Assembly (NCBI GenBank): GCA_014189435.1
Contig: CP050294.1
Location: forward strand, 62,001-126,000
DNA: 64,000 nucleotides
From: Mesorhizobium loti
Lineage (GTDB): Bacteria > Pseudomonadota > Alphaproteobacteria > Rhizobiales > Rhizobiaceae
Direction: 5' to 3'
Of the stretch, positions 1 through 56,046 are shown one piece after another (within the stretch, counting starts at the first letter, position 1; every line of letters begins with the position of its first letter). The notes under the pieces were generated by a model. That model was not told the DNA's origin. It did not search any database and saw nothing but the letters and a program-made list of their open reading frames with translations. The translations under genes and the position numbers were made by a program.

Positions 1-2
1 CG

Positions 3-668
3 CCGCATGGTGACCGCATCGTGCTGTCGAAGGGGCACGCCGCTCTTGCGTTTTATTGTGCGCTCGCCCAAGCCGGCCTGATACCGCAGCGTGATCTCGA
101 ATCGTTCAGCCGTAATGGCGGCAAGCTTGAGCCGCATCCTAACGAGCGCACCGTTCCTGCGGTGCAAGCGTCAACCGGTTCGCTTGGGCAGGGATTGTCG
201 ATCGGTGTTGGCCTCGCGTTGGGTAGCCGCATATGCGGTCGCAACGACTCCTGCTTTGTTATTCTGGGGGATGGCGAACTGAACGAAGGACAATGCTGGG
301 AGGCTGCGATGTCGGCCTCGCGGTTGCGGCTTGGCAATCTCGTGGCCGTGGTCGACGCCAACGGCTTCCAGCAAGATGGCCCGATGGACGAGATCATGCC
401 GGTCACCGGCCTGGCGGAGGCCTGGCGGACGCTTGGCTGGGCGGCCGCTGAGGTAGACGGCCACGATTGCGCCATGCTGCTTAGCACGCTGGCGGCGACA
501 CGCAGCGCCGATCGTCCGGCGCTGATCGTGGCGCGGACTGTGAAGGGCCGTGGCGTACCCTTCATCGAACATATGACCGAGAGTCATTTCCCTCCGCCGC
601 TGACCGCCGCTGAACTCGTCATGATCGACCAATTGGCTGCAAAGGGGACGGCAAATGCCCGCGGCTGA
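3..668 (+). CDS. Transketolase, N-terminal (TPP-binding) subunit, partial at left edge
   Basis: The frame is open to the left edge, so the true start is outside the window. The visible part begins HGDRIVLSKGHAA, the first conserved block of transketolase N-terminal subunits. It continues with STGSLGQGLSIGVGLALG and the thiamine-diphosphate/metal segment GDGELNEGQCWEAA...DANGFQQDG. Split two-subunit transketolases move two-carbon ketol units between sugar phosphates; in gene clusters they often supply an unusual sugar- or ketol-derived unit. The stop overlaps the start of the C-terminal subunit by 14 bases, so translation is coupled. The substrate cannot be read from sequence. The family call is secure. 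Confidence 0.93.
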   Translation, partial: PHGDRIVLSKGHAALAFYCALAQAGLIPQRDLESFSRNGGKLEPHPNERTVPAVQASTGSLGQGLSIGVGLALGSRICGRNDSCFVILGDGELNEGQCWEAAMSASRLRLGNLVAVVDANGFQQDGPMDEIMPVTGLAEAWRTLGWAAAEVDGHDCAMLLSTLAATRSADRPALIVARTVKGRGVPFIEHMTESHFPPPLTAAELVMIDQLAAKGTANARG

Positions 669-1579
669 GGTCTACGGCCCGTTGCTGGCGGCGCTTGGTG
701 GTCGAGACGAGCGGATCGTCGTCGTCGATGCCGGGCTCGGCTCATCGATGCAGACCGGTGCATTTCGCGCCAGCTATCCCGAGCGCTACGTCAATCTTGG
801 CATCGCCGAGGCCAACGCGGTCGGCGTCGCTTCGGGGCTCGCCCGGCGCGGCCTACGGCCTTTTGTCCATTCGTTCTCCAATTTCCTGGCGCGCCGCGCC
901 CACGACCAGATCGCGATCTCGGTCGGGGTAGGGGGGGCTGCCAGTCACGTTGATCGCAGGATCGTGCGGTATATTCGATGGTCGCAACGGTCCGTCGCAT
1001 TTCGCCGGCGATGACTTGGCCGCGATCTGCACAATGCCGGGCATGACCGTCTACGAACCCGCCGATACCATCGATCTCGAAACGTCGCTCGAATGGGCGC
1101 TGGCCAGTGCAGGCCCGGTCTATATCCGGCTACGCCGGAACGGCATGCCGCAGAGCATCGGCGATCCGTTGCTGACGCGGGAAGCGGTACGTCTGGTTCG
1201 GCTCAGCGTCGCGCCGCCGGTCGTCACGGTCGTGGCCGTCGGCGCCATGTTGGACGAGGTTCTGACCGCCTGCTGGATCCTGCTCGACGACGGGATCGTC
1301 CCCGAACTCGTGCACGTGCTCAGGATCAAGCCGTTCGATGAATCTGCAATTCTCGCGTCGGCTCGGCGGACCGGACGCATCCTCGCGGTCGAAAACCACG
1401 TCACCCATGGCGGCTGTGCGGCCGGCATTGCGATGCTTGCTGCGCGCGAAGCAATCAGATTTTCTGCATTGACGCTGCCAGATGCCATCCTCCCCGCAGG
1501 CGACCCGCGTTGGTTGTTGGCCCATTGCGGCCTCAATGCGACGTCGATTGCCGATCACCTCTCAAGCCTGTTGTCTTGA
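655..1579 (+). CDS. Transketolase, C-terminal subunit, frameshifted at a G7 tract
   Basis: The start at 655 lies inside the end of the N-terminal subunit gene. The first part (VVVDAGLGSSMQTG, RYVNLGIAEANAVGVASGLA) is the pyrimidine-binding domain. From about 950 another frame continues it (GSCGIFDGRNGPSHFAGDD, then the C-terminal domain to 1579). The break is at seven G at 931-937; with six G the protein reads through as 307 residues at the expected family spacing (SVGVGGLPVTLIAGSCG). This could be decay, transcriptional slippage or a homopolymer sequencing error. Together with the upstream gene it would make one transketolase. Confidence 0.85.
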
Positions 1580-1590
1580 AGGAGCACCTA

Positions 1591-2922
1591 ATGCTTCAGC
1601 ATATGGCCCCACTCGCCCATGGTCACCGCGCCGAGCTGCCCGACAAGACCCGGCCGCTGGTGCGATGGCGACGCGAGGCATTCGGCCTCCTTGCCGCCTT
1701 TCCGGATGGGCACGTCGCCGTGCTGGACGCGGAAGCGGCGCCTTTGCTGGAGGCCGGCGCCGATTACGCCAGCTGTTCGGGCTATCGCCTCCCTCGGCTC
1801 GAAGTGGCGACGGATTTTCATTTCTCGGCGCCGCTGATGGCATGGCTGGAGCTCACCCGCGCTTGCAATCTTCGTTGCCCTCACTGCTTCGTCGAAGGCG
1901 GGGTGGCGCGCGCGGGCGAAATGCGCACGGACCGCATTCTCGCCCTGCTCGACGAATGGGCGCGGATGGGGGTGTTCTCCGTCATCCTGACCGGTGGCGA
2001 GCCTACGATGCATCGGAATTTCCTCGAAATTGTCCGTCACGCGCACAGCCTCGGCTTCGTGGTCGGGATTGCCACTAACGGCATGCCGATCACCGAGCGC
2101 ATGCTGTCGGCGATCCCGCGCGACGACGTGATCATCAGCGTCAGCATCGACCATCTGCACGGGCAGGGCGCACGCAAAGGCCTCAGCGATTTCGAGTTCG
2201 CCAAGGGCAAGCTCCTGATGATGAAACAGGCCGGATTCAACACGTCGATAATGACGACGACGTCCAGCCAGAACGTGCATCAGCTGCAGGACATTATCGA
2301 CTGGGCGATCGAGAACGATCTCAGCCTGCGCAGCGTGCCGTTCGTCGAGATGGGGCGCGGCAAGCTCCACGGGCACCTGCTCAACCAGAGCCAGGACGTA
2401 GAAGCAGCCGCCCGGTTCTGGATGACGGAGGAAGAGTGGGAGCGCGTGCGTGATCCCAAGCTCGGCCTGTGCGCCGGCAAGGTGTTTAATTTCCTGCTGA
2501 CGATGGTTTATGCGACCCGCCGCTGCATGAGCGGCCGGGGCATCGCATATGTCAATTCCAACGGCGACGTTTATCCCTGCAGCACCTGTTCCGGCAACAA
2601 GGTCCTATGCGCCGGCAATGTGGCCTGGAGCGATTTTGCCGAGATCTGGGAAGGCAAGTGGGACATCCGCGCCATCACCTGGGACACCTTCGAGAGCACA
2701 TGCAAGGGCTGCGCGGTCGCTGATCGCAAGTATTTCTGCACCGGTCGCTGTCCTGGTAGTTCCAGCGTCCGCCACGGCCGTCTCGACGGCTGCGGGAGCA
2801 CGGACTTCCAGAAGGCTAGCATCCTGCGGCGCGAGGAATTGTTCAAGGCCAGCATCCATGCGGAGCCGGCCGTACCGGTGCGTGCTCCGCAAACCGTTTC
2901 GGATCCACCCGTCAGCGCTTGA
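1591..2922 (+). CDS. Radical SAM/SPASM protein, likely peptide- or amino-acid-modifying
   Basis: 443 residues. The start at 1591 is chosen because AAGGAG lies just upstream, right after the stop of the previous gene. Residues 92-99 (CNLRCPHC) are the CxxxCxxC [4Fe-4S]/SAM motif and TGGEP is at about 134-138. A cysteine-rich C-terminal half (RRCMSGRG, CSTCSG, CKGC, CTGRCPG) is a SPASM-type domain binding auxiliary iron-sulfur clusters. Residues 20-60 look like a small PqqD/RRE-type winged helix, which in RiPP enzymes binds a leader peptide; this is inference from pattern only. SPASM enzymes commonly crosslink, epimerise or otherwise modify peptides. The substrate is unknown. Confidence 0.9.
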   Translation: MLQHMAPLAHGHRAELPDKTRPLVRWRREAFGLLAAFPDGHVAVLDAEAAPLLEAGADYASCSGYRLPRLEVATDFHFSAPLMAWLELTRACNLRCPHCFVEGGVARAGEMRTDRILALLDEWARMGVFSVILTGGEPTMHRNFLEIVRHAHSLGFVVGIATNGMPITERMLSAIPRDDVIISVSIDHLHGQGARKGLSDFEFAKGKLLMMKQAGFNTSIMTTTSSQNVHQLQDIIDWAIENDLSLRSVPFVEMGRGKLHGHLLNQSQDVEAAARFWMTEEEWERVRDPKLGLCAGKVFNFLLTMVYATRRCMSGRGIAYVNSNGDVYPCSTCSGNKVLCAGNVAWSDFAEIWEGKWDIRAITWDTFESTCKGCAVADRKYFCTGRCPGSSSVRHGRLDGCGSTDFQKASILRREELFKASIHAEPAVPVRAPQTVSDPPVSA

Positions 2923-2936
2923 GGCGAAAGAAATCG

Positions 2937-4952
2937 ATGCGTATCTCGCTCGCAACCAGCCTTCATCTCGACCATGGTGCACGTCGCTTTGACGCCCGGC
3001 CAGGCGATCCGATCAATGTCATGCAGGCATTCGTGCCGGTCGGTCTTCTGTCGCTCAAGGCGTCGTGTCATGCCGCCTGCCCGAGCGCGGCCGTGGACGT
3101 GGTCGAAGTCAACACGCTGATTAATGCCGGGCAGATCCAGAACAGCAAGGACTTTTACGATGACCTCGCGGACGCGATCGTCGGCGCCGGCACCGATCTC
3201 GTCGGGCTTATGACCGACTCCGACTCGCTCCACCACACCGTTGCGATCGCCAGCCGCGTCAAGGCACGGGCGCCGCGCGCGATCGTTGGCCTTGGCGGCC
3301 CGGCATCGTCACCGCTCGCCCGCCCGCTGTTGCAGCGTTTCGAGGCGATCGACTTCGTTGTCCGCGGCGAAGGCGAGGAGACGTTCGCAGAAGCCATCTG
3401 TGCGCTTGAGCGTGGGGTGACGTTGTCCGGCATCGCCGGCCTGACCTGGCGTGATCGCTTGGATGTCGCGCATAATACCGATCGCAAAGTGATCGAGGAT
3501 CTCGACACGCTGCCGATCCCGGATTTCGCCGCCTACTCTGGGATTAGGGACGCCGCACTCTATCTAGACGTCGGCCGCGGCTGTCCCTTCAAGTGCTCGT
3601 TCTGCGCGACAGCTCCGTTCTGGGAGCGTCGTTATCGGATGAAGTCGATCCCGCGTATCCAGGAGGAGATTTGGCTGTTGCGCGACCGCTGGGGTCGTGG
3701 TCACGTCAATTTCTCGCACGACATCTTCACCTGCGACGCCAAATGGACACATCGTTTCTGCGATGCGATGAAGTCGGCCGAACTCGGCGTCACCTGGAGT
3801 TGCTCGACCCGCACCGACGTGATCGACCCGGAGCTGCTCGCTCACATGGCCGAAGCCGGCTGTGTCGAGATCTACTACGGCATCGAGACCGGCTCCCAGG
3901 CGATGCAGGCGGTGATCGACAAGGATCTCGATCTCGCACGGTCACGCGACATCGTGCGCGCGACGGCATCTGTCGGCATTCGTCCGGTTACTGGCTTCAT
4001 TCTCGGTTACCCCGAGGAGACGCCCGAATCGGCCTCGGACACCCTCACGCGTTTCTTCGACTTTCTAGAAGTCGGCGGATATCGCGCGCACATCTTCACG
4101 CTTTGTCCGTTCCCGGGGGCACCGATGTTCGCTCGCGCGCAAGAGCTGATCGGGCGGCGGTCCGAATGCCTCGAGCTTCCACTCGCCGCCGAGGCGGCGG
4201 CGGAAGCCGACCGGACGATCAGTGAAAATCCCCACATCTTCGTCGGACATTTCCGCTACGCGACGGCGGGCATTTCGTCGGAGCTCGTCGCCGCCGTCGA
4301 GGAGATTTCACCCCATCTCGTGCTGCTCAAGCGGCTCTGGCCGATGTTGTTGCCGCACTACGATGCACCGATGACCCTATTGATGCGCTGGACGCATTGG
4401 ATCGCCGAACGTAATGCGGAGCGACCATGGCGGGGCCGCCATCACGGCGACGCCGGCGATCTGATTGACTTCCTGGCCCGCGAACTTGCTGAACTCGGCA
4501 TCGCCGATGGACGGCTCGGCGAACTCCTGCGCTACGAGGCCGTGAAACTTGCCGCCGCGGCGTTGCCGGCGAATTCACTCGACGACACCGAGCGTCCGAC
4601 GCAGGTGAGCAGCGACACCATCCTTGGGCAAGCGAGGCATTACCTAATAGCGGCGTTCGCGGTCGATATCGGCGGGTTGATCGCCGGTCATGCGCAGCCG
4701 GCCAACGATGTTGTTCTGCCGCAATGGGTGCTGTTCGCGCGCGGATCGAGCGGCGCAGTCGACACGATGATGATCAGCGATCGCGCCCGCCGGATCCTCG
4801 AATGTGCGCAGCGGCCACGAAAGGCCGGCGAACTCGCGCGCGCCGCGCTGATCGATGCTGCCGGACGTGGAGGCGGGCCTACCGAGTGCGGGCTGGACAC
4901 CGTTCATGCGTTGCTCGAACGAAGGCTGTTGAAGGAGGTGATACCGTCATGA
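2937..4952 (+). CDS. Cobalamin-binding-domain radical SAM enzyme
   Basis: 671 residues. Residues 1-160 have the Rossmann-like B12-binding layout (GLGGPASS, RGEGEETF). The radical SAM motif CPFKCSFC is at 216-223, followed by a typical radical SAM barrel (YYGIETGSQ, GFILGYPEETPES). The last 80 residues contain a possible PqqD-like winged helix (ISDRARRILECAQ to LLERRLLKEV), seen in several B12 radical SAM enzymes acting on peptides. Members of this class often methylate unactivated carbons, but others do rearrangements or ring contractions. It follows the SPASM gene by 14 bases and overlaps the next gene by ATGA, so it sits inside the same operon. Confidence 0.9.
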   Translation: MRISLATSLHLDHGARRFDARPGDPINVMQAFVPVGLLSLKASCHAACPSAAVDVVEVNTLINAGQIQNSKDFYDDLADAIVGAGTDLVGLMTDSDSLHHTVAIASRVKARAPRAIVGLGGPASSPLARPLLQRFEAIDFVVRGEGEETFAEAICALERGVTLSGIAGLTWRDRLDVAHNTDRKVIEDLDTLPIPDFAAYSGIRDAALYLDVGRGCPFKCSFCATAPFWERRYRMKSIPRIQEEIWLLRDRWGRGHVNFSHDIFTCDAKWTHRFCDAMKSAELGVTWSCSTRTDVIDPELLAHMAEAGCVEIYYGIETGSQAMQAVIDKDLDLARSRDIVRATASVGIRPVTGFILGYPEETPESASDTLTRFFDFLEVGGYRAHIFTLCPFPGAPMFARAQELIGRRSECLELPLAAEAAAEADRTISENPHIFVGHFRYATAGISSELVAAVEEISPHLVLLKRLWPMLLPHYDAPMTLLMRWTHWIAERNAERPWRGRHHGDAGDLIDFLARELAELGIADGRLGELLRYEAVKLAAAALPANSLDDTERPTQVSSDTILGQARHYLIAAFAVDIGGLIAGHAQPANDVVLPQWVLFARGSSGAVDTMMISDRARRILECAQRPRKAGELARAALIDAAGRGGGPTECGLDTVHALLERRLLKEVIPS

Positions 4953-6142
4953 CCGTTCCGTCCCACGTCCTCGCCCACGCGCTGTGCTTCGATGGTCCCG
5001 TCTATGTTTATGATCTCGCTGTGTTGCGCCAGCGTCTGGCGCGATTGGAAGCGCTGCCGGTACGCCGCAAGCGAATCCACTTCGCTACGATGGCGAACGA
5101 CAATCCGCAGGTCCTCTGCGAGATTGCGGCCGCCGGACATGGCGTGTTCGTGAATTCAGCCCGCCATCTGGCGCTGGCGTTGTCGGCTGGTTTCACGCCC
5201 AATCGGGTCATCTTTGCGTCCAGCAACATGACGGCGGCCGAGATGCGCCATTGCCACACGTGCGGCGTCCACCTCGTGCTGGACTCGTTGGCGCAGGTCG
5301 AGACTTTTGATTCGCTCGCCTCACCCGGCACTGCGGTCGGCGTCCGCGTCAATGTCGGCAGCGCTATAGACACACCGGAGATAGGCAACGAGCCGTCTTA
5401 TCGCTTCGGCCTGTTGCCGGCGGAGCTCAATGCGGCTGTGGAGCGCGTTCGGAGGTTGCGGATCTGCGGTGTGCATTCATATTTCGGCACCGACATCATG
5501 GCCCCGGAGACGCTGGCGGAGGGGCTGCGCCGGCTCGTACGCGTCGCGGCATCATTGCCCGATCTGAGCTATGTCGACAGCGGCGGCGGTCTGGGCGTCC
5601 CGGAGGACCCGGACGCACCAGAGTTCGACCTGAAAACCTATGGAGGGCTGGCTGCCGCCGAGCTCGCCGAACTCGAAAGCAGGCTCGGCCGTCCGATTGA
5701 ACTTGTTATCGAGCCGGGACGATGGCTGGTCGCGCCAATCGGCTGGTTCTTCGCCCGGGTCGTCGACATCAAGCGGCGTCCAGATCGAATCTTCGCCGGC
5801 ACCAGCGCGAGCGTCGCCCAATTTCCGCGACCGCTGGTCTATCCGGACCGGGCTCACCATGCATGCGAGATCATGACCGGCGAGCGTCCACGCGCGCTTG
5901 CCGATCGTCCGGTCTGGCTCTCTGGCAATTCGACCTATTCCCGCGACTTTCTCGCCCGCGCCGTAACGCTACCTGAACCGGAAGTCGGGGATCTGATCGC
6001 ATTCCACCATGCGGGTGCATATTGCCGCTCGATGGTGACCCGTTTTCTAGGCAAGGAAATGCCTGCGGAAATCGCCCTCAACGCCACGGTTCGCCACAAT
6101 GCTAGGCCGGAGCAAGCCGCTCTGCTCAGCGTCGCAGATTGA
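4949..6142 (+). CDS. Fold-type III PLP-decarboxylase homologue lacking the usual PLP lysine
   Basis: 397 residues related to diaminopimelate/ornithine/carboxynorspermidine decarboxylases. It starts at 4949 behind a strong AGGAGG, overlapping the previous stop. Conserved family features are present: DSGGGLGVP (phosphate loop, about 210-218), EPGRWLV (255-261) and GAYCRSM (356-362). However, the N-terminal motif that normally carries the Schiff-base lysine ([FY]AxKAN) reads FATMAN with Met48 at the lysine position. The C-terminal Cys-x-x-x-Asp motif reads GNSTYSRD with Thr for Cys. Both changes argue against ordinary PLP decarboxylation. It may bind a ligand without PLP chemistry or use PLP differently. 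The alignment is by eye. Confidence 0.82.
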   Translation: MTVPSHVLAHALCFDGPVYVYDLAVLRQRLARLEALPVRRKRIHFATMANDNPQVLCEIAAAGHGVFVNSARHLALALSAGFTPNRVIFASSNMTAAEMRHCHTCGVHLVLDSLAQVETFDSLASPGTAVGVRVNVGSAIDTPEIGNEPSYRFGLLPAELNAAVERVRRLRICGVHSYFGTDIMAPETLAEGLRRLVRVAASLPDLSYVDSGGGLGVPEDPDAPEFDLKTYGGLAAAELAELESRLGRPIELVIEPGRWLVAPIGWFFARVVDIKRRPDRIFAGTSASVAQFPRPLVYPDRAHHACEIMTGERPRALADRPVWLSGNSTYSRDFLARAVTLPEPEVGDLIAFHHAGAYCRSMVTRFLGKEMPAEIALNATVRHNARPEQAALLSVAD

Positions 6143-6153
6143 AAGGAAGTCGC

Positions 6154-6957
6154 ATGTCGGCACTCGGTATGTACAGTCTACTGCGTCGGCTCGAACCGGC
6201 GCGTCACCAACTTGTAGGTCATGAAGTCTATGCGGCGCTCAGTTGCATCGAGGACGTACGCGTGTTCATGGAGCACCATGTGTTCGCTGTCTGGGATTTC
6301 ATGTCGCTGTTGAAGAGCCTGCAGCGGCGCCTCAGTTGCGTCGAGGTTCCCTGGCTGCCGGTTGGCTCGCCGCGCATGAGGCGACTGATCAACGAGGTCG
6401 TGCTCGAAGAGGAAACCGACCTGATCGATGGTGAGGCGACAAGCCATTTCGAGCTTTATCGTTCCGCCATGCTGGCGGCCGGTGCGAACACCCGGCCGAT
6501 CGATACCTTCGTGAAGGCGCTTCGCGATGGCGCCGAAGTGGCTGTCGCGCTGGCCAGCTGCTCCGCCCCCGTCGGCGCGCGCGCCTTTGTCGGCAAGACC
6601 TTCGAGATCATCGCCTCGGACAATCTTCATCAGATTGCTGCCGCGTTCACGTTCGGGCGAGAGGAGGCAATCCCTGGCATGTTTCGCACCTTGGTCGATT
6701 CCCTGTCGCGGCAGCAATCCAGCTCGCTGACGCCGTTTCAGGTCTATCTCGATCGTCACATCGGGCTTGACGAGGACACGCATGGACCGATGGCCGTGGC
6801 GATACTTGCGGAATTGTGCGGCGACGACGAGCGGAGATGGGAACAGGCGGCAGATGCGGCGCATGCCGCTCTAGCCGCCCGCCTCACCCTCTGGAGCACC
6901 GTATCGAGCGAGGTTTCGCTGCGACGGCTCGGTGTTCCCGGCCTTGTGGCTGCCTGA
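6154..6957 (+). CDS. DUF3050 protein, possibly heme-oxygenase-like fold
   Basis: 267 residues. The start at 6154 follows GAAAGGAAG; an earlier TTG overlapping the previous stop is less likely. The stretch FMEHHVFAVWDFMSLLK and the following HFELY segment match what I remember of DUF3050. I recall this family as belonging to the helical heme-oxygenase-like superfamily, which contains diiron and PqqC-like oxidases. Glu/His residues (EEETD, HFE, EDTHG) could bind metal, but ligands cannot be assigned without a structure. It lies between the altered PLP-fold gene and tldD in the operon, suggesting an oxidation step in the same pathway. The family call is moderately sure; the function is unknown. 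Confidence 0.75.
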   Translation: MSALGMYSLLRRLEPARHQLVGHEVYAALSCIEDVRVFMEHHVFAVWDFMSLLKSLQRRLSCVEVPWLPVGSPRMRRLINEVVLEEETDLIDGEATSHFELYRSAMLAAGANTRPIDTFVKALRDGAEVAVALASCSAPVGARAFVGKTFEIIASDNLHQIAAAFTFGREEAIPGMFRTLVDSLSRQQSSSLTPFQVYLDRHIGLDEDTHGPMAVAILAELCGDDERRWEQAADAAHAALAARLTLWSTVSSEVSLRRLGVPGLVAA

Positions 6958-6971
6958 GTCCTCGGGGCGCG

Positions 6972-8159
6972 ATGCCGATGCAGCGGGCGTGCGAGCAGGG
7001 TACACTTCTCACGGTCGGCCTGGCCTGGCCGCACGGAAGTCCGGTGCTGCAGACTACGCGGTTCGCAGCCTATTGCGAGGGTACCGAGGCAGCCGGCGTG
7101 GGGCGGCACAGCGGTCCGCCTCCGGCGGAGTGGGGCGTTCCCAATGTCGATAGGCCGCCCGTGACGCCGCCGGACACGGCACGTCTGAGGCTCTCGGAAT
7201 TTGCGGCCGCGGTCGGACTGCCGGCATCACTGCGCTACAGCCGAGTCGCTGCGCAGCGCTGGGTCTTGGAGCCCTTTACCGGCTGGTGCCGCCGTCCCGT
7301 CGACGTATTCGCGCTCACGGGGCGGCTGCATCTGGCCAACGGCCGGTTCATGCCGGTGGGATGGAGTGGCACGGGCGATGGACTGGCGCGCCTGCAAGGC
7401 GGCGCCCTGCGGCAGCGTCTCGTGCAGGTCGCGCGCGGCGCCGGAATGGCCCAACCCACCGTGTCCTGCGATGGCCCGGCCGTTCTGGCTTCCCAGCCCG
7501 CAGCCTTGATTGCGCACGAGGCGATCGGACATTTCGCGGAGGGTGCTGCAGACCCGAGAATCGATCTGCGTCACCGACTCGGCTGCCGGCTGGGGGCGGA
7601 TGATCTCGAGGTGCTGGATGATCCGACTTGTGGCGCTGCCGCGCGCTACGATGTCGATGACGATGGGATCGTCGCAACGGGAGCCACCCGGATTCTGCAG
7701 AACGGGGTGCTGGTGCGCCAGCTGCATGGTCGCGCATCGGCGGCAGCGGCGGGCGAATTGCCAACCGCGAACGCGCGCTCTTCACAGATCACGCTGCCAC
7801 CGATTCCCCGTATGTCCAATCTGATCGTGTCGCCCGGCACCAACTCGTTCGAGGAGCTCGTCGACGGAGTGGGCAGCGGCGTCATTATTCATCACCTGTC
7901 GCACGGTTTTTCGCGCGGGCTCCACGTCGAGGCACGGATCATGCTCGGCGAAGTTGTCGCCGCAGGGCGCGCCACTGGCCGCTTCTTCACCGGTGGTCGG
8001 GTGGAGGAGCGCGTCGATGTACTCACCGGCTGTCTGGCGCGTGCCCGTGAGAGCGAACTCAACCCTAACGCCCTGTGCGGCAAGCATGGCCAGATTCTCT
8101 ACGATGTCGGCACCTTGGCGCCGGCGATGCGGCTGTCGCGATTGAGGATTGTCGCATGA
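6972..8159 (+). CDS. TldD-like metalloprotease
   Basis: 395 residues. ATG at 6972 is chosen because earlier in-frame starts lie deep inside the previous gene. HEAIGHFAEG at 182-191 is the TldD HExxxH metal motif, and LCGKHGQ near residue 369 supplies the third-ligand cysteine region known from E. coli TldD. Downstream YDVGTLAPAMRLSRL is the usual C-terminal end. TldD with TldE forms a heterodimer that digests leader peptides or linear peptide segments, as for microcin B17. Next to two radical SAM enzymes this points to peptide maturation. It ends overlapping the next gene by ATGA. Confidence 0.88.
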   Translation: MPMQRACEQGTLLTVGLAWPHGSPVLQTTRFAAYCEGTEAAGVGRHSGPPPAEWGVPNVDRPPVTPPDTARLRLSEFAAAVGLPASLRYSRVAAQRWVLEPFTGWCRRPVDVFALTGRLHLANGRFMPVGWSGTGDGLARLQGGALRQRLVQVARGAGMAQPTVSCDGPAVLASQPAALIAHEAIGHFAEGAADPRIDLRHRLGCRLGADDLEVLDDPTCGAAARYDVDDDGIVATGATRILQNGVLVRQLHGRASAAAAGELPTANARSSQITLPPIPRMSNLIVSPGTNSFEELVDGVGSGVIIHHLSHGFSRGLHVEARIMLGEVVAAGRATGRFFTGGRVEERVDVLTGCLARARESELNPNALCGKHGQILYDVGTLAPAMRLSRLRIVA

Positions 8160-9123
8160 ATCAGATCGATCGCAGCGTGGTGTTTGCGCGCACGTCGGAC
8201 GGCTTGGCGACAAGCCATTTCAGCCATCGCCTCGTCATCGACGGAGCCGCCGCCGACGTTCGGTCCTGCAGCATCGATCCGCGCGATTGCGACGGACCGG
8301 CGCGGACGGCGTGGGCGCGGTGGCAAAGTCGAGTACCGGTCAGCCGGAGCCGGGCGGTCACCGCCGAGTGCGGAATCGTGCGGGAGGGTCGACAGACACG
8401 GACCTACACAGTTGTTCATCTCGATGGCGCGATCCTGGAGATCGACGAGATAGACTTCGACCACCCCAAGACGACCGACGAACTGGAATGGTCGCAACGT
8501 CCGCAACACGCAGCTATGGTGCTCGGGCCGTCCGCGGTTCTTGCGCTGGTGGACTTCGCCATTGATGGTGTGCTGGCCCCGCGCGGGCCGGCCGGTGCCG
8601 GCGCCCTCGCACCTTTGAGTATTATCGACACATCGACTTCACCTTATCCGCCCCAGCACCGGGAGGACGGCGCGACGCGACCGCTTGGTACCGCCAATTC
8701 CGGCGTGGTCGACGATGCCACCTTCTTGCTGCTCCAGCGCAGTGAACGTTGGCAACGTCCCCTCAACGCGCTGTACAATGTCAACCGCCGCAACTTAGCG
8801 CTCTACCATCCGGCCGCAGTCGATAATCCGCCGGTCGCCCTAGTGATCGACACGCTGGTCGCCGAGGGGGAGCCGACCACAACCGCGTCGAATTGGATCG
8901 GCAGATGGTACCTGCGCTCGCCCACAGGGGGGGCTGGGGCAGTGGGCCGTTATCCATCCGCTGGGACGTGTCGCAATTGCTCGAAGCCGCCCTTGGCGCA
9001 GTCTCGCCGCCGCTTCCCGCATGCGTGCGCGACCCGATCGAAGGCGACATATTCGGGCTGGCTCCGTCGTTGCTCGTTGGCCGGCTGCCGCAGGGATCTA
9101 AGCTTGATAAGGTGCGAGGATGA
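8156..9123 (+). CDS. TldE/PmbA-like partner protein, frameshifted at a G7 tract
   Basis: The start overlaps the stop of the tldD-like gene (ATGA). The middle (AAMVLGPSAVLALVDFAIDG, LAPLSIIDTSTSP) has the TldD/TldE beta-domain pattern but no HExxxH, as expected for the non-catalytic TldE subunit. At 8927-8933 there are seven G; in the current frame the protein then loses sense. In the neighbouring frame it continues GWGSGPLSIRWDVSQLLEAA to a stop at 9121-9123 that overlaps the next start. One more G (or two fewer) restores about 322 residues. The assignment leans on position next to tldD; similarity is weak. Confidence 0.65.
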
Positions 9124-9693
9124 CGATGCATGCGATCGACCTCGCACCGCACTGCAATGCCTGCGCGGCCACGTTCGACAGCGAGAGGTCAGCCGGCTGC
9201 GTCAACATCTGGGGTAACAGCTTCCCGGCTGAGGATGTGCCCTTCGGTCGCCCCATCATCGTCGGCGGCGTGACCTACCAGCTGGTCGCGAAGCAGCCCG
9301 GTGCCCCCGACCATGTCGAAGCGCTTGGACAGCGGATTGAGATCGGTGTGGTTGCAGTTGGGTACGCGCTCGGTGTGCTGGGATTTGGCGAACTCGGACC
9401 ACAGACCTTGATGTTGCGGTTGACGGACCGCTTCGGCGCGGTCGTCGGCGTTCGCGTGCAGCTCCCGAACTGGCTCTTGCCGCGGGGGGGCTCCCGCCCG
9501 CACTGCGACTTGGCGCGCCAGCCACCTGCACTATGTTGGCGACTACGAACTTGACCATCTATGCCCGGCGATGTTCAGCGCGACGGTCCCTCTGCTAGCC
9601 CCGTTCTGGCCGGTGACGCTGACAATTGAACCCAACCCGCTTGCCCATGTGATGGCGGTGACCATGTTGCAGAATGGGGGCGGCTATGTCTGA
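9120..9693 (+). CDS. Beta-sandwich-type accessory protein, frameshifted at a G7 tract
   Basis: The start at 9120 overlaps the preceding stop (ATGA). The N-terminus (CVNIWGNSFPAEDVPFG) resembles galactose-binding or NPCBM-like beta-sandwich proteins. The C-terminus (PFWPVTLTIEPNPLAHVMAV) is the matching last strand pair, but only in another frame. The two frames join at seven G at 9484-9490; six G gives one 190-residue protein. The function is unknown; such domains usually bind carbohydrate or stabilise a partner. The stop overlaps the BtrH-like start by eight bases, so it belongs to the operon. The fold call is from pattern only. Confidence 0.55.
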
Positions 9694-10702
9694 TTCGATT
9701 GCACCGATCCTGGTGCCGAGTCCCTTGGCAAATCTGCAGACGATTCTCGATGCCCTCCTTGGCGTGCCGAGTGAGTTCATGCTGGCGAGCGTCTGGTCGT
9801 TCAACCGCTTTGATCCCGATGCGGCGTCAATAGCCGAGTTCGACGTGCCAGGCGGATGGGACTTGCTCGGCGCACGCGTCGCGGCATATGCGGGGCTGGA
9901 GCTCGTGGCGGCGGAGTCCGATCCAACCGAACTCGCTTACCTGCGTCTCGAGCTTGGACAGCCGGTCGTGCTCGCGGTGGATAGTCACGAACTGCCGTAT
10001 CGTCCGGCCTATGGCAGGGTGCACAGTGCAAGGACCATTCTCGCCACGCGGATCGACCGGTCCGCTGGAACGGTCGATGTGCTCGATCCTTGGCCGCCGA
10101 CCTACACTGGGTCCATTCCAATCTCCATGTTGGATCGCGCCAGACAATCAGATGTGCCCGAGGACCGTGTCCGCGAGCCGCTCTATGCCGGTGTCGAGCT
10201 GAAGCGCCGCTGGTGGACCCTCGCGCTCGCGGCGGATGCCAGGTCCAGGACGGTCGACGGAGCCATGACGGCGATCGCAGAGCTTGCGCATGAAGCCGAA
10301 ACGACAGCAAGCGCCGACGCCATTGAGCGGTTTCGGGTTATCGTGGCGGAGGCAATGTCAAAGGGGGACGGCGCGTGGCAGGTTCGTCGGGCGGCTGCGC
10401 TGCACCTTCGGGCAGAGGTCGGGCTCCGGGCCTACCTGTTGGCGCTGTTGCGCCGGACTGCGCAGCTGCTCGGCGATACGCTGTTCGCCGCCGAGGTCGA
10501 TCGCTGGGCGACGCATCTCGACGCGCTCGGATTTGCCCGCGACGTACTGATCAAATCGCTCGGCTTCGATCGGAGCGAATACGCCGTGATCCTCGCCCGT
10601 GCGCTGTGCGAAGCGAGCGGCCGCGAGCGGCGGTTCGTGCAATTCCTGCGCGCGTTCTGCCTCCTCGACCACACGGACGAATTGACCAAGGGGCAGGCGT
10701 GA
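9686..10702 (+). CDS. BtrH N-terminal-domain-like protein
   Basis: 338 residues starting at ATG 9686, inside the end of the previous gene. The section LANLQTILDALLGVPSEF, later QPVVLAVDSHELPYRPAYGRVHSA, then a DVLDPWPP segment, follows the layout of butirosin BtrH N-terminal domains, which are papain-like acyltransferases that move an acyl group from a carrier protein. The family cysteine near the N-terminus is not obvious here (LANLQ where G-x-HC-x-S is usual), so catalysis is doubtful. The C-terminal 150 residues are helical without a recognised motif. No carrier protein is visible in the window. The stop and next start share one base (TGATG). Confidence 0.65.
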   Translation: MSDSIAPILVPSPLANLQTILDALLGVPSEFMLASVWSFNRFDPDAASIAEFDVPGGWDLLGARVAAYAGLELVAAESDPTELAYLRLELGQPVVLAVDSHELPYRPAYGRVHSARTILATRIDRSAGTVDVLDPWPPTYTGSIPISMLDRARQSDVPEDRVREPLYAGVELKRRWWTLALAADARSRTVDGAMTAIAELAHEAETTASADAIERFRVIVAEAMSKGDGAWQVRRAAALHLRAEVGLRAYLLALLRRTAQLLGDTLFAAEVDRWATHLDALGFARDVLIKSLGFDRSEYAVILARALCEASGRERRFVQFLRAFCLLDHTDELTKGQA

Positions 10703-11628
10703 TGGTGAACCACATCGTCTGGGTTATCTTCGACAGCGCGCGCTATGACTGCTTCGAGGCCGCGCATACGCCGGCCATCGACCGTATCGGCCGGGCACAG
10801 AAGCGCTACAGCTATGCAAGCTGGACCGCACCCAGCCATCATACCTTCCTGATGGGGCTGCCGCCCCATGCCAACGAGCCGGGTGTGCTGTCGTCCGATG
10901 CGCAGCGCCGAGATTTATCGCTCTGGCAGACCCGCATCGGTGGCAACAGGCAAGACGCGATCACATTCGCAGATTTCGCACCGACGCTGTCGTTGCCGCT
11001 GTTCCTCAGAAGCCTCGGCTACCGGACCGAGGCCTATGTGTCGATGCCAGTGCTGAATCCGAAGACGCTGATCGCACCCCATTTCGACATATTCGAGCTG
11101 ATGCCGGTGCACAACGATCTTCGCGCCATCATCGGCCGGCTGAACTTCGACGGAGGCCCGCGCTTCATGTTCATCAACGCTGGCGAAACGCATTATCCCT
11201 ATGCCTTGCCTGGAGAAAATGCCGGTGACCTGCCCCACATCCCCGGCGTACACGGGGTATGGCGTGGCATGGACGAGTTCGTGAGAGAACCGCAGGCATC
11301 GCGCGGCGAGGGCGCGGCGGATCGTTTCGACGTCGATCGTCTGCGGCCACTCTGGAACAAGCAGGTACAGTGCATCGAGTATCTGGACGGTGTGATCGGC
11401 GAGCTGATCGAGATGGCGCCGCCGGATACTTGGTTCATGGTGACGTCCGATCACGGCGAGCTGTTTGGCGAAGGCGGCTATTTTGGTCACGGCCCGGTCA
11501 TGCATGAAAAGGTATTCGAGGTCTTCTTCGTCGAGGGCCGTAATCCACGTCGTAACGGCGGCGAAATTGGCCGCGATGAACTGGAAGCCACAGTGCTGGG
11601 TAGGCTCAAGCAGCTTGGTTATCTCTGA
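10702..11628 (+). CDS. Alkaline-phosphatase-superfamily (sulfatase-like) hydrolase or transferase
   Basis: 308 residues. The N-terminal FDSARYD (metal-binding Asp at about 11), the segment WTAPSHHTFLMG (41-52), a central NAGETHYPY and the late TSDHGELFGEGGYFGHG are the ordered metal-binding motifs of the sulfatase/phosphotransferase fold. At the nucleophile position there is Thr42 rather than the Cys/Ser of true sulfatases, more like phospho-transferring members such as EptA or LtaS. No signal peptide or membrane segment is seen, so it is likely cytoplasmic. Substrate unknown; it may add or remove a phosphoryl-type group on the pathway product. Confidence 0.8.
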   Translation: MVNHIVWVIFDSARYDCFEAAHTPAIDRIGRAQKRYSYASWTAPSHHTFLMGLPPHANEPGVLSSDAQRRDLSLWQTRIGGNRQDAITFADFAPTLSLPLFLRSLGYRTEAYVSMPVLNPKTLIAPHFDIFELMPVHNDLRAIIGRLNFDGGPRFMFINAGETHYPYALPGENAGDLPHIPGVHGVWRGMDEFVREPQASRGEGAADRFDVDRLRPLWNKQVQCIEYLDGVIGELIEMAPPDTWFMVTSDHGELFGEGGYFGHGPVMHEKVFEVFFVEGRNPRRNGGEIGRDELEATVLGRLKQLGYL

Positions 11629-12241
11629 TGTTTCTGCATGCGATCAGCCTCGAGGATCTGCGCTATGTCGGCATCGGACACCGAAACAGCCATAATACCG
11701 TTGCGCCTGAGGACATGGGGGCTGATCGAGAGTCTTTTCGGATCACAGGTCGCGACCGGATGTTGGCGCATGTATTGGCGTGTCGAGAAGGGCGGACGCA
11801 GCTCGCATGCAGTGAGTGGGCCGCAGGCGCGGCCGCAGTTTCATGCGCTGGTCGCCGACGGCCGGATCCACGACCTGCTTGCATTCGCGAAGCGGGCACC
11901 GGGCGGATGGGCTCGCGTCGGCCCCTGCGAGGACTTTCTGCGGTTTTAGCGCGGGAGCGACCACACGAACCCGGCCCATCATGGTTCTCCATTCAGACGA
12001 AATGGCGCGGCTTGGGAGTCGGATCGCGCCTACTCGAACCTGCGATTTTGCCTTCGTTGAGGGCGCGAGCTGCCTGGAAGGCTATCCGGCCATTCCCGCC
12101 ATTCCCAGCCAGACGTTACCCGGTGCTTTCGTCTGGACCGGCGTGCCCGCGATGTTCGCGGCGGCAGGCTTTCGCGCAATTGCCTGCAAGGGGAAGCTCC
12201 GGCGGCTCTCGGACAGGGACTCGAACGAGCAGCCAGATTGA
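11628..12241 (+). pseudogene. Decayed GNAT-family N-acetyltransferase
   Basis: Fragments of one family lie in three frames in the right order. GCWRMYWRVEKG to GGWARVGPCEDFLRF ends at 11949. WRGLGVGSRLLEPAI, the acetyl-CoA-binding segment, is near 12002-12050. EGYPAIPAIPSQTLPGAFVWTG plus MFAAAGF runs to 12241. A working gene would need at least two frameshifts repaired, so this is either a pseudogene or badly sequenced. The annotated start at 11628 overlaps the previous stop (TGATG); an internal ATG at 11664 fits the family frame better. Its loss suggests the last step of the operon may be dispensable. Confidence 0.75.
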
Positions 12242-12277
12242 TTGAACCAGCGCTTTGCATGGAATATGGAGACGGAC

Positions 12278-13519
12278 ATGCCGGTTGCCCTCGTAACTCC
12301 TCTCGAAGACCCCTTCGGTCTGTTCGAGCCTGCCATCTTCGATGATCCCTATCCAATATATCACATGCTGCGGCATGCGGATCCGGTTCACTGGTGTGCG
12401 CCGATCCAGTCGTGGTTGCTGACCCGCTACGACGACGCGAATTCGGTGCTTTCCGATCGCCGCTTCGCCAGCGCCGCGCGCCGTGCAGTGGCAACTAACC
12501 GTATGCCCCTGGAACTGCGGCAGCGCATGACGCCGATCGACGACTTCATTTCCGAGTGGTTGATGAATATGGATCCGCCGAAGCACCTTCAGCGGCGTGT
12601 GCCGCTCAATAAGCTGTTTGCCAAGCCAGCGGTCGACCGCATTGCTGGCGAGATACAGCGGGTTGCGGATCAACTGATCAATCGCATGCTCCGGGCGGGC
12701 GGCGGCGACTTCATTGAGGACTTTGCCCAACCATTGCCCGTTGCGGTGATCGCCGCGATGGTCGGGATTCCGCCCGAGGATCACGCGAGTCTTTTCACCT
12801 GGTTCAGCCGAATGACGGCCTATTTTGAGTTGGGGGCCTCACGGCCGGAGACCCTCGATGGCATGACGACCACCATTGCGGAAATGAGTGACTATTTTGA
12901 TGCGTTGCTGGACCTGCGGCGCCGCAGTCCCGAGGATGACGTGCTCACTCGTCTGCTTGCACTTGAAGAGCCTCCGTTCGGCCGGGAGTGGACGCGCGCA
13001 ACGCTCGCTCTGCTACTGTTCGCCGGCCACGAATCGACGCGAGCGACGATCGGGAATGGCATGCTCGCGTTGCTCACACGACCTGATGCGATGAAGCGTT
13101 TGCGCAAAGATCCGTGTCTTCTGGACCGCGCGATAGAGGAAATGTTGCGCTTCGATGGCCCGTTTATGCGGCTCGATCGCGTCGCCTCGGGCGACGTCGA
13201 CATGCGCGGACAGCAGATCACTTCCGGCGATCGCGTGGTCTTGATCCTCGGCGCTGCAAATCGCGATCCGGCACGTTTTCCGCAGCCCGACGTCTTCGAC
13301 ATCGACCGCGCCAATATCGATCATCTTGCCTTCGGTCACGGCGAGCATTTCTGCCTCGGGGCGCGGCTCGCCCGCATGGAATTGGCGATCGGGTTCGAGG
13401 CGCTGCTGCGACAGCTGCCGCTGCCGCGTCTCACCGGTGAGGTCGTCTGGCGGCGTCACTTCAATCATCGCGGCCTCCGTAGGATGCCGCTGACTTTTGG
13501 AAGCTATATGATCCATTGA
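12278..13519 (+). CDS. Cytochrome P450
   Basis: About 413 residues from ATG 12278, which has GGAGA nearby; ATG 12266 is an alternative. The I-helix AGHESTRAT, the K-helix EEMLR and the heme loop FGHGEHFCLG (Cys ligand) are all present, so it should be a functional soluble bacterial P450 needing separate ferredoxin and reductase, which are not in the window. It sits 36 bases after the decayed acetyltransferase on the same strand, so it may be the last gene of the biosynthetic cluster or an independent neighbour. The substrate is unknown. No frameshift is present. Confidence 0.93.
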   Translation: MPVALVTPLEDPFGLFEPAIFDDPYPIYHMLRHADPVHWCAPIQSWLLTRYDDANSVLSDRRFASAARRAVATNRMPLELRQRMTPIDDFISEWLMNMDPPKHLQRRVPLNKLFAKPAVDRIAGEIQRVADQLINRMLRAGGGDFIEDFAQPLPVAVIAAMVGIPPEDHASLFTWFSRMTAYFELGASRPETLDGMTTTIAEMSDYFDALLDLRRRSPEDDVLTRLLALEEPPFGREWTRATLALLLFAGHESTRATIGNGMLALLTRPDAMKRLRKDPCLLDRAIEEMLRFDGPFMRLDRVASGDVDMRGQQITSGDRVVLILGAANRDPARFPQPDVFDIDRANIDHLAFGHGEHFCLGARLARMELAIGFEALLRQLPLPRLTGEVVWRRHFNHRGLRRMPLTFGSYMIH

Positions 13520-32842: not shown

Positions 32843-32912
32843 CCTACCGCGATTTGTCGCGGTAGGAGTCATCAGCCTTACTGGCGGTTTCGGGAGAACT
32901 CCATTCCCATCA
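32843..32912 (-). promoter_or_regulatory. Fluoride (crcB-type) riboswitch
   Basis: On the minus strand the leader reads GGGAATGGAGTTCTCCC, then GCCAGTAAGGC and CTGATGACTCCTACC, the three conserved parts of the fluoride riboswitch. CTCCTACC also forms one arm of a following stem, CCTACCGCGA/TCGCGGTAGG (32843-32866), so ligand-dependent competition between aptamer and stem is likely. No U-tract follows, which speaks for something other than classic termination. It sits about 60-130 bases before the crcB start. Confidence 0.93.
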
Positions 32913-32922
32913 GAACTAAATT

Positions 32923-55621: not shown

Positions 55622-56046
55622 CCGGAGAGACCGGCAGGCCGAGAAAGCGGCCATGTACAAGTCTTCGCCTGCCGGGCTGGCGAAGATAAGCCGTTGGCTT
55701 GACAGCTCTGACCATGGTTCTCAGTTCACCGGTGAACCGGCAACGCGATATTGGACGATCTTGGTAGCGGGATGGCCAATCAGTGGCCGGACTTCGTCGC
55801 CCCAGTTTTCCAGTTTCTCGCGCGCAAGAAAAAGGCCGAACCAAGGGTCCGGCCAGGTATGAAGGTCAAAACCTCCAGAGGGGAACGCGCCAGACGAATG
55901 GGATGAAACATCCGACGCACCGCGCATATGGGTTAGCAAAGATGACACTTCAACGACGCGCCGGTAGGCCACCAGACCTATCCGCTTGGTGCACTGAAGC
56001 TTGAAGCTTGCGTGCCTGATGCGCTTGCCTAAATCACATGGCTGGT
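55622..56046. other. 425-base gap, one doubtful minus-strand frame
   Basis: A minus-strand frame around 55721-55900 reads DPWFGLFLAREKLENWGDEVRPLIGHPATKIVQYRVAG, which looks somewhat protein-like but has no domain and an unconvincing start. No other frame is supported. Nothing repeated or palindromic was noticed. Confidence 0.3.

Follow-up and report, generated by a model that had tools for sequence, protein, structure and literature searches.

The subject of this report is a packed plus-strand operon in a Mesorhizobium genome of 8.33 Mb in 3 contigs. The operon spans contig C2 58,088-75,519, and its first gene begins 3.9 kb to the left of the 64,000-nucleotide stretch of DNA that we analyzed (the window; C2:62001-126000, where window position p is contig position C2:62000+p). 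On balance, we favor the reading that the operon is a hybrid that merges pathways of two known kinds, in which azinomycin/vazabitide-type chemistry would be performed on the C-terminal lysine of an NTF2-fold protein and the product would be released by a TldD-type peptidase. A bolder proposal, which we regard as plausible rather than probable, is that the operon represents a new class of ribosomal product: an NTF2 protein, possibly forming a ring like the CaMKII hub, whose tail lysine or arginine would be converted to an aziridine amino acid by enzymes of the radical SAM, transketolase, aminotransferase and AziU types and cut free by TldD. The parts are ordinary and their combination is unusual. 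Our strongest results concern the tail of the NTF2 protein and the module that unites AziU2/AziU3 relatives with a transketolase.

A first-pass annotation of the window saw no described pathway with this set of genes, and the reading that they form a conserved unit without a described product is supported within what could be searched. We defined a core set of 13 proteins: the NTF2 protein, a phosphodiesterase, a DegT aminotransferase, the N- and C-terminal transketolase subunits (TKT_N and TKT_C), a SPASM and a B12-binding radical SAM enzyme, a decarboxylase-fold protein with methionine in place of the pyridoxal phosphate (PLP) lysine, a DUF3050 protein, a TldD-type protein, a protein of about 321 residues, and AziU2-like and AziU3-like proteins. 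Proteins from M. qingshengii (G010) were used as tblastn queries at E<=1e-4 against our genome (G000), a Bradyrhizobium (G674) and a Terriglobia metagenome-assembled genome from an acidobacterium (G450). Counting G010 itself, the source of the queries, all 13 core proteins are present in all four loci that cover the region.

The NTF2 protein and its C-terminal tail

The operon begins with the gene for the NTF2-fold protein (-3912..-3445, C2 58088-58555; SnoaL_3, 7.9e-14). A search for related proteins returned 94 among 273 candidates, and because the weakest match has an E value of 5.5e-31 despite a limit of 0.001, these proteins constitute a discrete family. All 94 stop exactly at the same C-terminal motif, which is GTPK in 90 and GTPR in 4. 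The last 16 residues of our protein are LEERVATAAAAVGTPK-stop. No other window of the family alignment is as conserved as these 16 columns, which reach 3.96 bits as compared to 3.51 bits for the best window elsewhere, 2.77 bits for the body (residues 1-120) and 1.73 bits for the linker (residues 121-134). Furthermore, when 16 columns were drawn at random from the body 100,000 times, no draw attained the conservation of the tail.

The AlphaFold2 model of a protein that is 97% identical to ours (P0121) has blocks with predicted local distance difference test values above 90 up to residue 120 and below 50 for residues 137-153, and the tail is predicted from this model to be disordered. Among the 18 codons of the tail, stop included, the copies from our genome, G674 and G503 differ by 9-10 synonymous changes and no amino acid changes. 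The tail is conserved at the protein level; five amino acid differences separate it from the G450 copy. The body of the protein resembles the CaMKII hub (6w4o, E 1.4e-8), an oligomerizing domain, and by analogy the NTF2 protein may oligomerize.

The first-pass annotation saw no precursor peptide in the window and noted that the operon continues to the left. The leftward extension adds four gene starts, reaching -3912, and supplies a strong candidate: the first gene of the operon probably encodes the "missing" precursor. A short separate precursor gene was also considered and rejected: in an acidobacterial genome (G954), the interval from the NTF2 gene to the SPASM gene has no wholly contained open reading frame (ORF) of at least 40 codons with a usual start. 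In the open-licence literature that was searched, neither an NTF2-type precursor of a ribosomally synthesized and post-translationally modified peptide (RiPP) nor an aziridine pathway acting on an encoded residue is described.

Relatives of the NTF2 protein also occur in clusters of other composition, with a tail that ends in GVAQ. A second cluster type, in Sinorhizobium meliloti GR4 (L010 7620-14614) and Sinorhizobium medicae T10 (L012 8747-15736), combines NTF2, SPASM and B12 genes with QueA-like, PqqD-like, decarboxylase-fold and CAAX-type protease genes. The cluster in G954 (L103 1786-8232, reverse strand) has the GVAQ tail, the SPASM and B12 enzymes, a flavin mononucleotide (FMN) dihydroorotate-dehydrogenase-type protein, a creatininase and a deoxyribosyltransferase-type protein, and it has no decarboxylase fold. 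Both radical SAM enzymes are common to the GTPK-type and GVAQ-type clusters, and the NTF2 protein is the sole small non-enzyme that we noticed in all three cluster types. DegT, TKT, AziU2, AziU3, TldD and DUF3050 proteins were undetected in the GR4, T10 and G954 loci (20-29 kb each). Terminal lysine accompanies the TKT, DegT and AziU genes in 4/4 loci and terminal glutamine accompanies their absence in 3/3, a comparison of few loci in which ours and G010, as well as GR4 and T10, are close pairs. From this correlation only, we hypothesize that the terminal lysine is the substrate that links the tail to the aziridine module. The NTF2 protein of G010 matches that of G954 (6e-19) and has no match to that of GR4 at 1e-4; the GR4 protein is linked to the others via the full-operon locus L014 (9e-18) and G954 (2e-31).

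Putative maturation enzymes and the proposed aziridine module

The annotation of the window suggested a peptide-derived product, and this is supported by a maturase fold of the RiPP type, the TldD-type protein and the precursor-like protein to the left. The first ten structures that Foldseek returned for the SPASM enzyme (1594..2922, start uncertain, ORF opening at 1510) are all SuiB, SkfB, PqqE or 5why/5wgg, which we take to be CteB, and the model shares its fold with two RiPP maturases, SkfB and SuiB. Three strands and two helices precede its radical SAM core. The alignments to SkfB (21-398) and SuiB (4-408), for which the end residues alone are reported, start within this N-terminal domain, which in the model seems to resemble a RiPP recognition element (RRE). 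The best NCBIfam model for the SPASM enzyme is MftC, with a score of 109.5 bits where the cut-off is 265, and the score for PqqE also lies below its cut-off. For the B12-binding enzyme of 671 residues (2937..4952; PF04055, 4.9e-19; PF02310, 1.7e-11), the best model is ApyD, at 298.9 bits against a cut-off of 750. Two further candidates for recognition domains were rejected: a PqqD-type domain at the C terminus of the B12 enzyme, which has no Pfam match there, and an RRE in a 109-residue protein of GR4, where a weak PqqD match (20.8 versus 23.4 bits) falls under the cut-off.

The second part of the proposed hybrid is carried by two adjacent genes. A profile built from three copies of a 190-residue protein (9120..~9690, end approximate; length that of the G010 copy) matches Azi28 (2.2e-13) and AziU2 (2.7e-13) over columns 5-184 of 189, and the block NAWGNSFPA is common to them. 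The next protein (9674..10702) was termed BtrH-like in the first-pass annotation. Its BtrH_N match in Pfam reaches 27.9 bits and the cut-off is 29.7, and a profile of two copies has better matches in the structures of Azi29 (1.6e-16) and AziU3 (1.7e-16). By homology, the two proteins are relatives of AziU2/AziU3, the aziridine synthase of azinomycin biosynthesis. The AziU2-like gene occurs only at the operon in 4/4 genomes.

We compared the operon with clusters in Streptomyces CL7 and NBC_01006, which are two of three matching records and are both on plasmids. The genes for DegT, TKT_N, TKT_C and the AziU2-like and AziU3-like proteins lie in the same order as in the operon, and the last two adjoin in the operon and in both clusters. 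Between TKT_C and the AziU2-like gene, the operon has six genes (SPASM, B12, decarboxylase fold, DUF3050, TldD and 321-residue protein), and the Streptomyces clusters have a GNAT gene on the other strand. Identities of the Streptomyces proteins to those of G010 are 36-38% for DegT, 45% for TKT_N and 37% for TKT_C. The closest structures to the DegT protein are 8gyh (279 bits) and 8y96 (216 bits), followed by one at 154 bits; our guess is that the first two come from an azinomycin/vazabitide-type pathway. The transketolase and BtrH-like genes had been assigned to a sugar or acyl branch, which finds no support. They belong instead, with DegT and the 190-residue protein, to an azinomycin/vazabitide-type aziridine module.

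Alongside this module, CL7 and NBC_01006 carry genes for LysW (ending EDWGE), LysX/RimK, ArgC and ArgB. The Streptomyces LysW, LysX/RimK, ArgC, ArgB and M20 proteins have no tblastn match at E<=0.01 from -20 to +20 kb at our locus or in G010, G674 and G450; the search covered L009, L101, L111, L014 and L112, and the CL7 control was positive. A sodium/proton antiporter near the acidobacterial operon (L014 18630-19934) is 36% identical to one beside CL7 (L118 28368-29609) and possibly belongs to the pathway.

Azinomycin and other DNA-alkylating agents carry aziridines, which are three-membered nitrogen rings, as reactive groups. Self-resistance through AlkZ was considered. AlkZ-like genes lie on contigs other than that of the operon in 4/4 genomes and are therefore uninformative. 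In the available parts of the published accounts, the transketolase AziC5/C6 of the azinomycin pathway adds two carbons to glutamate semialdehyde, an aminotransferase then yields DADH, and sulfation comes before aziridine closure (PMC9570651). AziU3/U2 is likewise described there as functionally an aziridine synthase that acts via sulfate displacement (PMC12559475), with O7-sulfo-DADH bound in 7WUX (PMC11168924), and the aziridine of kintamdin as a proposed intermediate of other chemistry (PMC9415263).

Operon layout, companion proteins and distribution

The description of the operon as a tightly packed plus-strand unit is borne out by the gene coordinates: depending on which start codon is chosen, one gene runs 1-14 bases into the next or stops no more than a few tens of bases short of it. 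The NTF2 gene is followed by those for the phosphodiesterase (-3421..-1553; PF01663, 7.2e-27), the DegT aminotransferase (-1556..-192; PF01041, 1.9e-71) and TKT_N (1..668 in the window; its ORF opens at -219 and the true start is uncertain; PF00456, 4.6e-36). TKT_C (655..1579) matches PF02779 and PF02780 on two pieces. Downstream of the AziU3-like gene are a sulfatase/alkaline-phosphatase-superfamily protein (10699..11628; PF00884, 7.6e-10), which is STM4013-like below the cut-off, an apparent remnant of a GNAT acetyltransferase (11628..12245) that has no Pfam match and shows tblastn similarity to ORFs in G450 and G674, and a cytochrome P450 (12242..13519, translated from 12269; PF00067, 6.7e-28), the last gene of the operon. 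The gene content that was first proposed stands for the SPASM, B12, decarboxylase-fold, DUF3050, TldD, transketolase and alkaline-phosphatase-superfamily genes, and the TldE half of a TldD/TldE pair has no support at the sequence level.

Three genes are frame-broken in the window, each at a G-run: TKT_C near 931, the 321-residue gene near 8927 and the AziU2-like gene near 9484. Over 21 kb, plasmid p_3 of M. huakuii 583 shows no mismatch to the window. It lacks nine single bases, eight of which fall in runs of at least four, including these three G-runs. In G010 none of the three genes is broken, and its TKT_C has 307 residues; the 321-residue and AziU2-like genes are also intact in 583. Because 583 differs at the same G-runs and intact copies exist, the frame breaks are probably assembly errors. 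The G010 copies were therefore used for these genes.

Among the companion proteins, the diaminopimelate-decarboxylase-fold protein (4949..6142) does not have the PLP-binding lysine of diaminopimelate decarboxylase. An alignment of relatives (120 of 211 listed) has methionine at this column (FATMAN) in 119 of 123 sequences, with three gaps and one valine, and an alignment to 2yxx shows that the cysteine loop is altered and the glycine and EPGR motifs are kept. The protein may hold a phosphorylated ligand or serve as a scaffold. The idea that the C-terminal lysine of the NTF2 protein substitutes for the PLP lysine was dropped because the GR4 tail ends in glutamine, yet its decarboxylase-fold protein has the same methionine. 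Relatives of this fold occur in genomes with no match to the NTF2 profile at 1e-5 (L015-L018, from Ruminiclostridium, Acidobacteriota, Bradyrhizobium and Myxococcota). A relative in Gloeothece (L011 13917-15146) has valine at this position, and its gene adjoins asparagine synthetase genes.

The DUF3050 protein (6154..6957; PF11251, 1.6e-94; PDB 9vwb, 1.8e-53) is heme-oxygenase-like with a putative di-iron site; the available parts of PMC4520260 describe such a predicted site, and those of PMC3298696 describe a DUF3050 protein, MgoB, in the mgo operon. The TldD-type metallopeptidase (6972..8159, start taken from G010; PF19289, 3.9e-24; PDB TldD 5nj5, 3.1e-11) has an HExxxH motif (HEAIGH), as do all three other copies. 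Maturation of microcin B17 and of klebsazolicin involves TldD/E, as stated in the portion of PMC10885120 that was available. The next gene (8156..~9123) was formerly read as TldE. At the sequence level, Pfam yields no hit for its product at E<=1 (3/3 copies), TldE is absent from the PDB matches, and a profile comparison with the TldD copies is also negative.

Gene content varies modestly among the loci. In G450, DUF3050 is set apart, beyond GNAT, sulfotransferase-type and antiporter genes. The sulfatase-like gene is present in three of the four loci and absent from G450, which is the sole locus where a sulfotransferase-family gene was seen; one could have displaced the other. GNAT has a tblastn match in 4/4 loci, with PF00583 in the G450 copy, a related ORF in G674 and a remnant-like form in Mesorhizobium. 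The P450 is clear in our genome, G010 and G450, and reaches only 25% identity in G674. A 4.5-kb contig of G503 carries BTAD, NTF2, phosphodiesterase and DegT genes, and the examined piece of M. huakuii 7653R carries the operon from the B12 enzyme onward.

The system is rare. The NTF2 profile matched 2/242 genomes from the genus of G453, 2/297 from the phylum of G450 (itself included) and 1/398 from the phylum of G000 (itself), and the decarboxylase-fold profile matched 1/397 from the order (itself). Likewise, the SPASM enzyme at E<=1e-40 was found in 2/101 relatives and the AziU2-like gene in 2/199, in each case G000 and G010. A scan of genome contigs gave at least 80 loci, from which L014 proved to be a full operon, L013 is the contig of L009, and L015-L018 were examined. 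Profiles A1 and A2 include GR4 proteins, and A2 also those of L014, so these matches hold by construction.

A BTAD regulator (-5193..-4234, annotated in strain 583) lies upstream of the NTF2 gene, and relatives occupy this position in G010, G503 and G674, the last with transposase-like ORFs between. Further upstream are multicopper oxidase and tyrosinase genes (-8576 to -5201), also present in 583. Upstream of BTAD in G010 (L009 13-639, reverse strand), one ORF resembles an acyl-homoserine-lactone synthase by eye only. Insertion sequence (IS) elements flank the operon. To its right, two pairs of ORFs in opposite orientation (14587-15642/31114-32169 and 19126-20721/28618-30213) have near-identical N termini; judged by the 583 annotation of the first stretch, they are probably transposases that mark a transposon-rich region. 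The window also holds a fluoride riboswitch (32856-32917, minus strand) and an ar15 small RNA match (55831-55918, minus strand), both above the Rfam gathering score. A link to symbiosis was rejected, as the nifH gene above the cut-off sits on C3 and the operon on C2. In 7653R pMHb (L008), nifT, nifZ and nifB lie on the downstream side of the P450, 5.6-8 kb away. On expression, the available parts of PMC3973600 and PMC4072884, both on M. huakuii, hold no information for the operon genes.

Proposed pathway, alternatives and known systems

In the pathway that we propose, the NTF2 protein with its disordered, nearly invariant tail would be both the carrier and the source of the product, and the SPASM and B12 enzymes would act on the tail. 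The encoded C-terminal lysine, or rarely arginine, would be oxidized to an aldehyde, perhaps by DUF3050 or the P450; this is the weakest step. By homology to azinomycin and vazabitide biosynthesis, the split transketolase would extend the chain by two carbons, and the resulting ketone would be aminated by DegT. A leaving group would be installed before ring closure, with a sulfotransferase-family gene found only in the acidobacterial locus. The AziU2/AziU3-like pair may then close the aziridine, and the TldD-type peptidase may free the product. If these steps hold, an encoded residue on the NTF2 protein would replace the LysW carrier with its ligated glutamate.

Several observations weigh against this proposal. 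The product, the tail modification and the substrate are all proposed from genes alone, and the formation of an aldehyde from lysine or arginine is a guess. The resemblance to an RRE rests on two alignments, PqqE and 5why/5wgg align to the SPASM enzyme only from about residue 65-75, and its N-terminal stretch has no Pfam RRE match. The AziU3 match spans only columns 30-225 of 368; the Streptomyces and G010 proteins are 24-25% identical for AziU2 and 31-35% for AziU3 over 97-99 residues, and these relatives could do other chemistry. No similarity was detectable between the GNAT proteins of the operon and of Streptomyces, and no sulfotransferase P-loop was found, with one narrow pattern, from -20 to +64 kb at our locus or in G674. 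The pathway does not account for the Met-for-Lys decarboxylase fold and the 321-residue protein. Moreover, 16 of 42 NTF2-family contigs of at least 6 kb are missing from both sets of listed matches, SPASM and decarboxylase (120 each).

Some residues of the NTF2 body are also invariant (e.g., Q67, R87, H116 and S118), and the protein may therefore do more than carry. Together with the SnoaL_3 match, this favors an explanation that we consider unlikely, in which the protein acts as a SnoaL-like enzyme whose tail is a docking motif for recruitment of the other enzymes, as conserved disordered tails can be, and an aziridine-type product is assembled on an amino acid that is free or activated in some other way. 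However, a docking motif might allow extension beyond GTPK or GTPR, the SPASM enzyme has a peptide-maturase fold, and no ligase or adenylation family was found among the scanned operon proteins, nor a LysX/LysW relative by tblastn. Slightly less probable still is a redox cofactor like mycofactocin or PQQ, for which the radical SAM enzymes would crosslink or decarboxylate the end of the tail and a peptidase would free it, with the TKT and AziU genes decorating it and no aziridine formed. A near-invariant tail is what a cofactor would predict, MftC is the best model for the SPASM enzyme, PqqE is among the top structures, and G954 pairs the two radical SAM enzymes with creatininase-family and FMN dihydroorotate-dehydrogenase-type proteins. 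Yet the MftC score is far under its cut-off, the G954 creatininase passes the creatininase model (241.7 versus 235) and fails MftE (117.1 versus 172), and the system is sparsely distributed (see above). Mycofactocin and PQQ draw on a tyrosine in their precursors, whereas the tail has none.

It is also conceivable, at a low probability, that the operon is a decaying, non-functional island carried by transposons on Mesorhizobium plasmids. In 7653R pMHb (L008 5782-7002), an ISAzo13-family transposase gene interrupts the 321-residue gene, and because the GNAT gene also looks decayed in Mesorhizobium, the pathway may be failing in this genus. The flanking IS elements and the frame breaks of the window point the same way. 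Nevertheless, each break coincides with a G-run and has no counterpart in G010, conservation of the unit extends across phyla, and the tail is preserved at the protein level.

If the hybrid pathway is correct, an amino-group carrier, LysW, has been swapped in evolution for a self-encoded substrate on rhizobial plasmids. Aziridines would arise from a ribosomally encoded residue, a new bacterial route to such compounds, and RiPPs and amino-group carrier proteins would be joined via a folded carrier. It would also give context to a decarboxylase-fold family without a PLP lysine and point to an antimicrobial or a signal that rhizobial plasmids might encode. The proposal permits a precise and cheap test: one protein, one C-terminal residue and one mass shift.

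Among known systems, the LysW-type azabicycle pathways of azinomycin, vazabitide and ficellomycin resemble the operon in the split transketolase, DegT, the AziU2/AziU3-like pair and gene order. In contrast, the operon has no relatives of their LysW, LysX/RimK, ArgB, ArgC and M20 proteins nearby, and it adds the NTF2 protein, two radical SAM enzymes, the Met-for-Lys decarboxylase fold, DUF3050, TldD and the 321-residue protein. GNAT proteins are found in both, without detectable similarity. Mycofactocin and PQQ pathways likewise use a SPASM maturase and yield a product from a short encoded stretch that a peptidase frees, as we propose here, but the precursor of the operon would be a folded NTF2 protein, its SPASM enzyme scores below the MftC and PqqE cut-offs, and an aziridine module is added. 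In pearlin biosynthesis, as far as the accessible text of PMC10885120 describes it, an amino acid is built on the C terminus of a scaffold peptide and released by TldD/E-like proteins, which are encoded in the clusters, or M50 proteins. This is similar to the proposed C-terminal growth on a carrier with a TldD-type protein, whereas the operon matches include no peptide aminoacyl-tRNA ligase family and the modified residue would be encoded. Finally, the operon has in common with the aminopyruvatide (apy) pathway a P450 and a B12 radical SAM enzyme whose best model is ApyD, although the operon falls well short of the ApyD cut-off and scores 42.1 of 525 bits for ApyO.

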